Below are positions 14,977-18,136 of a DNA stretch of 20,643 bases, in pieces. The stretch comes from a virus. The notes beneath the pieces are model-generated. The model was not told where the DNA came from, did no database searches, and was given only the letters and a program-made list of their open reading frames with translations. Each line of letters opens with the position of its first letter. Position 1 is the stretch's first letter. The DNA is taken from positions 1 through 20,643 of IMG/VR virus record IMGVR_UViG_3300032087_003540. One strand, written 5' to 3'. Both the position numbers and the translations under genes were made by a program.

Positions 14977-15360
14977 ATGACTAAATATACTTACTCAGAC
15001 GATCTAGTGTCAGATTTACACAAAGATGCTTGGGGTCACAGACCTGGTGAAGGGTTTTGGTTTCGTTGGGAAATTGCAGACGAAGACGCTAAACAAGCTA
15101 TTTGGGATAACCTTATCGATGATATGGTTAAGAACGATGCTGAAGAAGCTAAAGCCAAGAAAGATAACGCTTCTAAACTTGCTCAAAGAATTAGAGAAGT
15201 TTGCAAGCTAGGTGCTCAAAACTACAGAACTGCAATCAGATGGATAATTGATGCAGATGAGTTAGAGCCTGACTTTCGATATGATGGCGACCAATTAGCT
15301 TGGGAATACAACATCGAATTTAGACACAGAAAATTATTTAAATTAGCGGGGGTAGCATAA
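14977..15360 (+). CDS. Hypothetical protein (127 aa)
   Basis: A soluble protein rich in Asp, Glu, Lys and Trp. Notable sections are YTYSDDLVSDLHKDAWGHRP, GEGFWFRWEIADEDAKQAIW and AIRWIIDADELEPDF. It is predicted mainly helical, with a charged middle (DAEEAKAKKDNASKLAQRIRE). I recognise the general pattern from other phages, always as a hypothetical gene and often beside a DUF932-type gene, as here. The AGGAG site lies 7 bases upstream and the stop overlaps the next start (TAATG). Function unknown. Confidence 0.75.
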   Translation: MTKYTYSDDLVSDLHKDAWGHRPGEGFWFRWEIADEDAKQAIWDNLIDDMVKNDAEEAKAKKDNASKLAQRIREVCKLGAQNYRTAIRWIIDADELEPDFRYDGDQLAWEYNIEFRHRKLFKLAGVA

Positions 15361-16274
15361 TGTTAGATACTAAAATGGAAGAAGCGTTACAAGACGTATC
15401 ATTTAAAATCGATGTAAGGGATATTCAAGGTATCCCTTCACATATGGGCAGAAAAGTAGTACGCCTTAATCACTATGGTCAACAAGAGGGTGATCCACTT
15501 GGTATCGTAGGTTCTAGATACAAGCCTATACATCATATGGATGCATTTGGTGGAGCTATAGAATCAATGAAAAGTGGTGGTCTAGACTTTACTGACCACG
15601 AAATCAAAGTTGACACTTATGAAAATGGTGCAATGGCTAAGATGGAGTTATTGCTTCCAGCCCATAACACTCAAGTTGGCGACCATGATTTATCACTTAA
15701 GTTTGTAGCTAGAAATAGTTACAACGCTAGATGGAAGTTTCAGTCCTTCTTTGGTTGGATGAACCATGTATGTTTCAATACTTTAGTAAGTGGTCAAAAG
15801 ATTGCTTATACTGCTAATAGGCACACTACACACTTCAACGTAGACGCCTCTAACAAGAAGATACAAAATGCAGTAACTGCTATTACTAATGAGACTGAGC
15901 AATTCAACAAATGGTGGGATACTAAAGTTGAAGATGAGCAAGTCATTGATTTGTTTAAATCAACTATAGCTAAAAGCCAAGCTAACGAAATTAAATTAGC
16001 TAGTGGTCAGTCAGATACTAACAAAAAGCAACTATATCATTTAATGGGCTTATATGAGGCAGAGGTGGCTCAAATTCATGGAAGGGGTGATTATGGCAGA
16101 AATGGTGCTAAAGGCTCTCTATGGTGTGCATATCAGTCTGCAACTGCTTGGTCTACACACTTAGGAGATGTAAAGGCTAATAGCACAAATAATCATATAG
16201 TCGAGCAACGTAGACAAAACGATGTAAGGTCTATGATTAATAGCAATAAGTGGAAACAACTTGAAAATGCATAA
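15360..16274 (+). CDS. DUF932/phage-plasmid-like protein (304 aa)
   Basis: The order of conserved blocks fits the DUF932 (TIGR03299-type) phage and plasmid protein family: LGIVGSRYKPIHHMDAFGG, then a beta section MAKMELLLPAHNTQVGDHDL, FVARNSYNARWKFQSFFGWMNHVCFNTL, and a helical end with TEQFNKWWDTKV and SLWCAYQSATAWSTHLG. In this family the N-terminal residues often carry a conserved G-x-x-Y-x-x-(I/V)-x-N-like segment, matched here by the GSRYKPIHH stretch. No enzyme activity has been settled for it; suggestions range from DNA-replication accessory to anti-restriction roles. It is coupled to the 127-aa gene and followed by a strong stem-loop. Confidence 0.8.
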   Translation: MLDTKMEEALQDVSFKIDVRDIQGIPSHMGRKVVRLNHYGQQEGDPLGIVGSRYKPIHHMDAFGGAIESMKSGGLDFTDHEIKVDTYENGAMAKMELLLPAHNTQVGDHDLSLKFVARNSYNARWKFQSFFGWMNHVCFNTLVSGQKIAYTANRHTTHFNVDASNKKIQNAVTAITNETEQFNKWWDTKVEDEQVIDLFKSTIAKSQANEIKLASGQSDTNKKQLYHLMGLYEAEVAQIHGRGDYGRNGAKGSLWCAYQSATAWSTHLGDVKANSTNNHIVEQRRQNDVRSMINSNKWKQLENA

Positions 16275-16397: not shown

Positions 16398-17543
16398 TTG
16401 GAAGATTTATATGGATACAAAAAAACTATATTAAGAAGTGAGGTAGAGCTAACTGATATAGATAAAGAGATATTTAAGAACTTTGATTATAAGTTTGATG
16501 GGGTGACTGAGTTTGAGTTACCTCATTTCGAGCCTTTTAAGGAAGACTTTTCTATTGGTGTTATTTATGGGTCAAGTGGTAGTGGTAAGTCCTCTATGCT
16601 TGCTCAGTATGGTAAAGAAGAGGAATTAACTTGGGATAACAATAAAACCATAGCATCTCATTTTGATAGCGTAGATGACGCCATAGAACGATTTGGTGCA
16701 GTTGGTCTTAATACTGTTCCTACTTGGGCTAAACCTCGTCATGTGTTGTCTAATGGTGAGGGCTTTAGATGTGACCTAGCTAGGCGTTTAGGTAGCAATA
16801 TTGTTATTGATGAGTTTACCTCAGTAGTAAATAGAGATGTAGCCAAGTCGTGTTCATTATCTTTATATAAGTATGTGAAACGTAAAGGTCTTAAGAATAT
16901 TGTACTAGCTACTTGTCATGATGATATTTTAGAATGGCTGCAGCCAGATTGGGTATTTAACACTGATGTGAAGCGATTCGCATCAAGGGGGTTAGTTCGG
17001 CAACCCATTGAAGTTAAAATTGTCAAAGGGAACAGACAACACTGGGAATTATTTAAAAAGCATCACTATCTAACTGAAGACCTACCTGCTTCTGCACATT
17101 GTTACCTTGCTATATGGAATGATAGAATTATAGGCTTTTCTTCTGTAATGTCTTTACCAGGGTGGACACCACCTCTTTACGAAGGCGACAAGCGTCTTAA
17201 ATGGCGTGAGGCTAGAACAGTAGTCCTTCCAGACTTTCAAGGGCTAGGGATAGGTGTAAGGCTGTCTGACGCTATTGCAGATATGATGATAGAGAAAAAT
17301 GTTCGTTACTATTCTAAGACCTCACATATTAGGATGGGTGAGTACAGACAAAAGTCTCCTCTATGGAGAGCAAGTGCAAGTAATTTAAAAGATAGAAGTA
17401 GCGATATACATGACCATAAAAAGCGTCTTATACCTTTAGAAAGAGATAGGATTTGCTATTCTCATGAATACATAGGGGAAAATAATAAGTCCTATGACCC
17501 TAAATATAATCGACCCGATGACCCACAACAAAGTTTGTTTTAA
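16398..17543 (+). CDS. ABC-type ATPase fused to GNAT/Mom-like domain (381 aa)
   Basis: Residues 40-195 are an ABC-type ATPase: Walker A GSSGSGKS (58-65), a shortened signature LSNGE (117-121), Walker B NIVIDE (Asp138, Glu139) and the switch histidine TCHDD (His174). There are no membrane segments, so it is not a transporter. Residues 203-381 are a GNAT-type fold with FKKHHYLTEDLP (His222-His223-Tyr224), PDFQGLGIG (281-286, the CoA-type loop) and SKTSHIRMGEYR; the end has CYSHEYIG. The layout matches COG2401 (ABC ATPase fused to acetyltransferase), and HHY plus the GNAT core resembles Mom, which modifies adenine in phage Mu DNA. Start is TTG with GGGAGG 6 bases upstream; no ATG precedes Walker A. 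Modification of DNA is inference. Confidence 0.8.
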   Translation: MEDLYGYKKTILRSEVELTDIDKEIFKNFDYKFDGVTEFELPHFEPFKEDFSIGVIYGSSGSGKSSMLAQYGKEEELTWDNNKTIASHFDSVDDAIERFGAVGLNTVPTWAKPRHVLSNGEGFRCDLARRLGSNIVIDEFTSVVNRDVAKSCSLSLYKYVKRKGLKNIVLATCHDDILEWLQPDWVFNTDVKRFASRGLVRQPIEVKIVKGNRQHWELFKKHHYLTEDLPASAHCYLAIWNDRIIGFSSVMSLPGWTPPLYEGDKRLKWREARTVVLPDFQGLGIGVRLSDAIADMMIEKNVRYYSKTSHIRMGEYRQKSPLWRASASNLKDRSSDIHDHKKRLIPLERDRICYSHEYIGENNKSYDPKYNRPDDPQQSLF

Positions 17544-18136
17544 TGAAATGGGAATATCACAAAGGTAAATCTAAATATCTATCTACAAAACTTACCAAGC
17601 CTATAATAAATGTAGATATAATTCATGGCGACAGAAGGCTATGGGATGTATTTAAAAAACATCATTATCTAAGCGAGGACTTGCCTTTGTCTACTAGATG
17701 CTTCTTCGCAGTATGGGATGATAATATAATTGGGTTTAGTGCTACCATAAGTTTACCTGGGAAAATACCACCTTTATATGAGGGTGATATTAGAAAGAAA
17801 TGGAGAGAATGCAGAACTGTAATAATACCAGACTTTCAAGGATTGGGTATTGGAACTAGATTTTCTGACGCTATAGCTGACATACACATAGAGCAAGGTT
17901 ATAGATATTTCAGCAAAACATCTCACATGAGAATGGGTTTATATAGAGAAAAATCACCTATATGGAAAGCGACAGCCACTAATCTTGCAGACAGATCAAA
18001 AAGCACTAAAGGTAAAAGTTGGTCACATCTTAATATAGAAAGAGAAAGAATATGTTATTCACATGAGTATATAGGGGAAGACAGAAAATCGTATAACCCT
18101 AAATATAACGCCACTAATCACCCTTTATTGATCTGA
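17543..18136 (+). CDS. Stand-alone GNAT/Mom-like protein, paralogue of the upstream fusion's C-terminal domain (197 aa)
   Basis: It repeats the second domain of the upstream gene: by eye about two thirds of some 130 residues are identical, including FKKHHYL (38-43), PPLYEGD, TVIIPDFQGLGIG (QGLGIG at 99-104), FSKTSHMRMG and ICYSHEYIG. The ATPase part is absent. All motif residues are intact, so it is not a decayed copy. ATG overlaps the upstream stop (TAATG) and has no own ribosome site, so it should be made by reinitiation in fixed ratio with the fusion protein. Its 3' end overlaps the convergent leftward gene by 23 bases. Likely role: second subunit or second specificity of the same modification enzyme (inference). 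Confidence 0.78.
   Translation: MKWEYHKGKSKYLSTKLTKPIINVDIIHGDRRLWDVFKKHHYLSEDLPLSTRCFFAVWDDNIIGFSATISLPGKIPPLYEGDIRKKWRECRTVIIPDFQGLGIGTRFSDAIADIHIEQGYRYFSKTSHMRMGLYREKSPIWKATATNLADRSKSTKGKSWSHLNIERERICYSHEYIGEDRKSYNPKYNATNHPLLI

Follow-up and report, generated by a model that had tools for sequence, protein, structure and literature searches.

The stretch of DNA analyzed here, hereafter referred to as the window, is a 20.6-kb fragment of a viral contig that carries terminase, portal, and replication genes. A megablast search of the window against phages yielded no match. Two genes on the plus strand are of particular concern. The first, at positions 16398..17543, begins with a TTG codon preceded by a GGGAGG Shine-Dalgarno sequence and encodes a polypeptide of 381 residues, referred to as P1, in which an ABC ATPase (residues ~1-200) is followed by a GNAT domain (residues ~205-365). 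It is predicted to function as a DNA-base acyl- or acetyltransferase. The second gene, at positions 17543..18136, encodes P2, a free GNAT of 197 residues that belongs to the same family as the GNAT domain of P1 and is devoid of the ABC part. The ATG of the second gene overlaps the stop codon of the first in the sequence TAATG. Directly upstream of the fusion, and likewise on the plus strand, lies a DUF932 gene (PF06067) at positions 15360..16274, which is kept in the window clade. The amino acid sequence of P2 is 57-62% identical to that of the P1 GNAT domain, and its dN/dS ratio of 0.07-0.14 is indicative of purifying selection, which rules out a decaying copy. The original prediction, made from the nucleotide sequence of this region, had described the second gene as an intact GNAT started at the stop of the first, and both the overlap and the purifying selection bear this out.

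The ABC portion of P1 is characterized by a Walker A motif, GSSGSGKS (16569..16592), an ABC signature, LSNGE (16746..16760), a Walker B motif with the catalytic glutamate, NIVIDE (16797..16814), and a switch histidine, H174 (16917..16919). In the GNAT portion, the sequence HHY is encoded at positions 17061..17069, and the acyl-CoA pyrophosphate loop, QGLGIG, at positions 17238..17255. The corresponding HHY and QGLGIG motifs of P2 are located at 17660..17668 and 17837..17854, respectively, and all of these features lie on the plus strand. Across 49 diverse homologues the Walker A residues, S118 and G120 of the signature, D138-E139, and H174 are invariant, as are H223-Y224, R273, P278, Q281-G282, and W323 of the GNAT domain. 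The full ABC ATPase core joined to a GNAT domain with HHY and QGLGIG, as originally described, is thus confirmed by motifs that are invariant or nearly so. ABC cassettes dimerize on ATP, and GNATs catalyze acyl transfer from CoA. In light of the invariant motif residues, both the ATPase and the transferase of P1 appear, as judged from sequence, to be active.

The model of P1 calculated with AlphaFold2 (pLDDT 87) consists of an ABC cassette and a GNAT fold, and that of P2 (pLDDT 82) displays a GNAT fold. The ABC part of the P1 model matches the structure of MJ0796 (1l2t) with a Z score of 13.8, and the GNAT part matches 1y9k with a Z score of 14.0. A sequence search with P2 against the PDB gave no match. 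The best structural matches of the GNAT folds are protein and small-molecule acetyltransferases, and enzymes with this fold are known to act on a wide variety of substrates. Pfam recognizes a GNAT in P2 and in the C-terminal portion of P1. P1 also matches phrog_11143, a family of unknown function, over residues 13-364 with an E value of 1.2e-105; for P2, the match is to the C-terminal half of that family. The domain order of P1 would be the same as that of COG2401, an ABC ATPase fused to an acetyltransferase.

A tblastn search with P1 returned 51 phage records, and P1 is 30-44% identical to proteins from more than 50 phages. Its homologue in Tenacibaculum phage pT24 shows a sequence identity of 38% (tblastn). 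This phage serves as the example, in section 3.4.7 of PMC7824862, of a GNAT linked with an ABC ATPase, a combination for which an uncharacterized acylation of a base in DNA had been predicted (Iyer 2013). With an ABC ATPase of seemingly active motifs followed by a GNAT, P1 belongs to this predicted family of DNA-modification proteins. The idea that ABC-GNAT proteins modify DNA is therefore not new, having been predicted already. No experiment on the family was found in the literature searched. The original remark that such a system is not characterized accordingly stands with respect to experiment, but the family itself had been recognized.

When 84,980 species genomes were scanned, 489 relatives emerged. 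The 80 of the 489 matches that were listed derive mostly from Planctomycete contigs, and in many of these the presence of terminase and portal genes downstream suggests prophages. Fusion homologues were also observed on contigs binned as archaeal MAGs (L084 and L102; Euryarchaeota and Woesearchaeota), which may be mis-binned phage contigs. In the loci L037:3803-4866, L040:3731-4791, L045:3710-4764, L034:5112-6190, and L038:3947-5343, which originate from Streptococcus, Oenococcus, Lactococcus, Thomasclavelia, and one environmental phage, the regions for the ATPase and the transferase occupy overlapping frames, with the ABC frame stopping at the HHYL/YHYL codons. In L034, nine consecutive A residues are situated at the ABC/GNAT junction, and slippage by -1 there would rejoin the two frames into a fusion. 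These split-frame loci may employ programmed frameshifting.

With respect to gene neighborhood, a ParB or ParB-methyltransferase gene adjoins the fusion in 65 of ~125 loci representing many lineages, and in 63 of the 65 it is positioned directly upstream and on the same strand. The ParB-family neighbor is sometimes fused to an N6/N4 methyltransferase. The fusion often lies just before the terminase genes, and the terminase small and large subunits and the portal commonly follow. The window clade itself yielded no ParB gene, and thus the ParB context from the other loci is not directly applicable here. The proximity of the fusion to ParB, together with its frequent position directly upstream of the terminase genes, would be in keeping with an accessory role in DNA packaging or partition rather than in base modification. 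We consider such a role highly improbable, however, in that the fusion is not next to the terminase genes in the window, in P12024S, or in the T4-like phages, the catalytic residues of the GNAT domain are invariant, and, as described below, the gene for Mom takes the place of that for P2 in related contigs.

Other neighbors of the fusion were observed as well. In Pseudomonas, Gordonia, and Porphyromonas phages, a formyltransferase-like gene of phrog_9240 is positioned directly 3' of the fusion (L039:5900-6517, L043:1805-2452, and L044:4852-5325), and it may hint at the group transferred. In Gordonia phage Jace, a gene annotated as an aspartate decarboxylase and with no PHROG match follows the ParB and ABC-GNAT genes (L049:5092-5517).

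According to the original prediction, both GNAT domains were Mom-like. By sequence, neither is Mom. P1 and P2 gave no match to the Pfam Mom model, PF25680, at E values up to 10, nor to phrog_1384 (Mom), and PF25680 is absent from the families listed for 55 GNAT members. A BLASTP search with P2 against Mu Mom likewise gave no match. The profile comparison of the GNATs with Mom that had been called for, carried out with hhalign, resulted in a probability of 1%, with the alignment pairing the HHY residues with the HY of Mom; this His-Tyr pair is all that aligns. The model of P2 can be superimposed onto the structure of Mom (8bv8) with a Z score of 11.6 over 151 residues, the longest of the structural alignments listed, and ordinary GNATs tie with it at 11.4-13.1. 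Note that both P1 and P2 keep the QGLGIG loop at the position where the Mom rows of the alignment show ELNRxxL and N-xx-S. The retention of the loop where Mom has an unrelated stretch makes an ordinary acyl-CoA reaction likelier than that catalyzed by Mom. In PMC7824862, Mom is treated as a separate GNAT family.

If both GNATs were nevertheless Mom-type iron/His-Tyr enzymes that carbamoylmethylate adenine as a fixed pair, the pairing of HHY with the HY of Mom and the length of the 8bv8 alignment would be accounted for. The lack of matches to the Mom models, the low hhalign probability, and the conserved QGLGIG loop all argue against this explanation, as does the absence of P2 from most relatives, and we regard it as very unlikely. 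Indeed, P2 is found only in the window and in five related contigs, and thus it is the fusion alone, and not the two-gene unit of fixed ratio that had been proposed, which is conserved.

The slot that follows the fusion was compared among contigs in which the fusion is at least 75% identical to P1. P2 follows the fusion in six contigs, namely the window, L003, L004, L005, L007, and L008. In nine contigs (L009-L015, L020, and L028), with fusions about 84-87% identical to P1, the P2 slot contains a true Mom; that of L009 matches PF25680 with an E value of 5e-38 and phrog_1384 with an E value of 7e-59. L016-L019 contain neither, and no record among those examined has both P2 and Mom. The nine contigs retain the sequence TAAATAAAATACGAATATCATAAAG just 5' of Mom. 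It reads IKYEYHKGY* and matches the start of P2, MQYEYH, with the ATG lost, and only 4 of 20000 random windows align as well. In L010, the last 46 nucleotides of the Mom gene share 87% identity with the 3' end of the P2 gene in L008, such that Mom in this contig terminates in the P2 tail, DSQFGLF. The Mom proteins of the other slot contigs terminate in VQQVLF. These observations are most simply explained by an in-place substitution of Mom for P2. A Mom gene is also found near the fusion in two more distant loci, L224 and L245.

In the tree, all of the P2 proteins group together (100/99) beside the fusion of L185, which belongs to another phage lineage (95/88), and they fall outside of the P1 clade. 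This placement rules out that P2 is a simple tandem copy of P1; a captured fusion stripped of its ATPase fits better. To our knowledge, the exchange of Mom and P2 provides the first context evidence that connects this uncharacterized family of GNATs with an enzyme proven to hypermodify DNA.

A role for P1 in DNA modification is likely, given the family prediction, the ParB and ParB-methyltransferase neighbors, and the Mom in the P2 slot. The hypermodification system that had been suggested is hence probably correct with regard to DNA modification, on better grounds than those originally given, and loses the Mom label. An alternative explanation is that the GNATs acetylate a host protein, such as RNA polymerase, an enzyme of restriction or repair, or the replisome itself, as phiKMV Rac does, with the C-terminal tail of P1 described below serving only to place the enzyme at the fork. 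Such a function would agree with the closest folds, and phage GNATs that modify RNA polymerase are indeed known (PMC7824862). The replacement of P2 by a true Mom in place and the ParB-methyltransferase neighbors speak against a protein substrate, however, and fusion to an ATPase is unusual for a protein acetyltransferase. Acetylation of a host protein is therefore, in our opinion, unlikely.

The last five residues of P1, QQSLF (17526..17540, plus strand), constitute a candidate β-sliding-clamp-binding motif, the consensus being QL[S/D]LF. The bacterial clamp-binding motif has been described as a C-terminal QL(S/D)LF (PMC9690074), and certain transposases bind the host β clamp through a short C-terminal QLxLF (PMC4549789). 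In the AlphaFold2 model of P1 the pLDDT of the tail is below 50, and it is predicted to be disordered; P1 thus ends in a motif of the QL[S/D]LF type within a flexible tail. The fusions of the aquatic clade terminate in QISLF, QINLF, QISMF, QMDLF, QQDLF, QGTLF, QTEMF, QQQLF, or QLELSL, and the linker preceding the motif varies among them. The fusion of P12024S, only 36% identical, ends in QISLF. For P2, the tail is QISIF in L007 and QFGLF in L008, and in the window it is HPLLI (18119..18133, plus strand), a degenerate or lost version of the clamp motif; the P2 of the window has probably lost it. The motif is missing from the Planctomycete prophage homologues and from most distant fusions. Aquatic viral Mom proteins (L164-L180 and L266-L345) contain a C-terminal extension of ~20 residues, and Mu Mom stops before it.

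A narrow regular expression, Q..[LMI]F, fixed at a stage when most of the Mom tails had yet to be inspected, matched 12 of 59 distinct fusion tails (shuffles: mean 0.14, maximum 3) and 33 of 56 distinct Mom tails (shuffles: mean 0.27, maximum 3). The motif is short. Because the tail sequences share ancestry, the counts are not independent and the shuffle tests overstate independence. A pattern including hexapeptides (QxxLF or QxxLxL), the widening of which followed inspection of the Mom tails, ends 50 of the 56 distinct tails of aquatic Mom proteins and 16 of 18 distinct aquatic fusion tails, as compared with 12 of 1091 background open reading frames. As judged from these sequences, Mom and the ABC-GNAT proteins, which have no detectable sequence similarity to one another, appear to converge on the same five tail residues. 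By Pfam, neither a polymerase of family A, B, or C nor a β clamp was found in seven relatives of 28-52 kb, and, with the reservation that these contigs may be incomplete, the phages probably use the host clamp. In the open-access literature we found neither a clamp motif on DNA-hypermodification enzymes nor any connection between sliding clamps and modification enzymes of the Mom or GNAT type. The new elements of this investigation are the Mom in the P2 slot with its accompanying P2 remnants, and the clamp-type motif that ends P1, most aquatic fusions, and most aquatic Mom proteins.

The tail also bears on the possibility that RNA is the substrate. TmcA, the tRNA(Met) cytidine acetyltransferase (2zpa), unites an ATPase with a GNAT in a single polypeptide and catalyzes an ATP-dependent nucleobase acetylation, producing N4-acetylated cytidine in tRNA. 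It is the sixth match of P1 in Foldseek and the highest-ranked one to join an ATPase to a GNAT. In addition, 5 of the 55 GNAT members match PF13718, the GNAT family of TmcA, albeit weakly (best E value 0.0024). On the other hand, the structural match to TmcA is itself weak (TM 0.28), and P1, with its ABC cassette, does not show the helicase-type ATPase and GNAT_acetyltr_2 combination of TmcA-like proteins. The DNA-methyltransferase, ParB, and terminase neighbors, along with the clamp tail, point to DNA. RNA modification in the manner of TmcA thus seems to us quite improbable.

On balance, we favor, at slightly better than even confidence, a model in which P1 is a clamp-tethered, DNA-base acylating enzyme and P2 an accessory GNAT, with the two protecting the phage from host restriction. 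The GNAT domain of P1 would bind an acyl-CoA, probably acetyl-CoA, through the QGLGIG loop and place its acyl group on an exocyclic amino group of a base in DNA, the active site being formed with the His-Tyr pair. The ATPase, which probably dimerizes as other ABC cassettes do, would use ATP to engage or remodel the DNA such that the base is presented. The flexible C-terminal QQSLF would bind the host replication clamp, and from this we propose that the enzyme acts on newly made phage DNA. P2 would represent a second, ATPase-free GNAT that was captured from the fusion of a related phage and that sits in an accessory slot filled in relatives by Mom, where it may broaden or boost modification. 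Both P2 and Mom could supply either a second chemistry or more activity, the presumed purpose being protection from host restriction.

The broader proposal that Mom and the ABC-GNAT proteins share a C-terminal clamp tag, with hypermodification occurring at the fork by riding the host clamp and with enzymes or tails being exchanged in one genomic slot of this phage group, is in our estimation evenly poised. If true, it would directly and testably explain how phage hypermodification enzymes act on the viral DNA before the restriction enzymes do, in that viral DNA may be marked while it is being copied, and the tag would also help to recognize, from sequence, further DNA modifiers that are coupled to replication.

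P1 shares with the predicted GNAT/ABC family (Iyer 2013; PMC7824862; pT24; phrog_11143) the same two-domain architecture and the same predicted role, and differs in the clamp-like tail and the P2/Mom slot, neither of which is mentioned in the portion of PMC7824862 considered. Mu Mom (PDB 8bv8; PF25680; phrog_1384) resembles P1 and P2 in its GNAT fold and in the His-Tyr pair after the first helix, whereas P1 and P2 miss the Mom models and keep QGLGIG, and P1 adds the ABC ATPase. Unlike P1, Mu Mom is without a clamp tail. TmcA, like P1, carries its ATPase and GNAT on a single chain, but it differs in having a helicase-like ATPase and an RNA substrate, and its structural correspondence to P1 is weak. 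Finally, the β-clamp-binding transposases (PMC4549789) are, like P1, mobile-element enzymes with a C-terminal Q-L-x-L-F type of motif; the transposases move DNA, whereas P1 is predicted to modify it.
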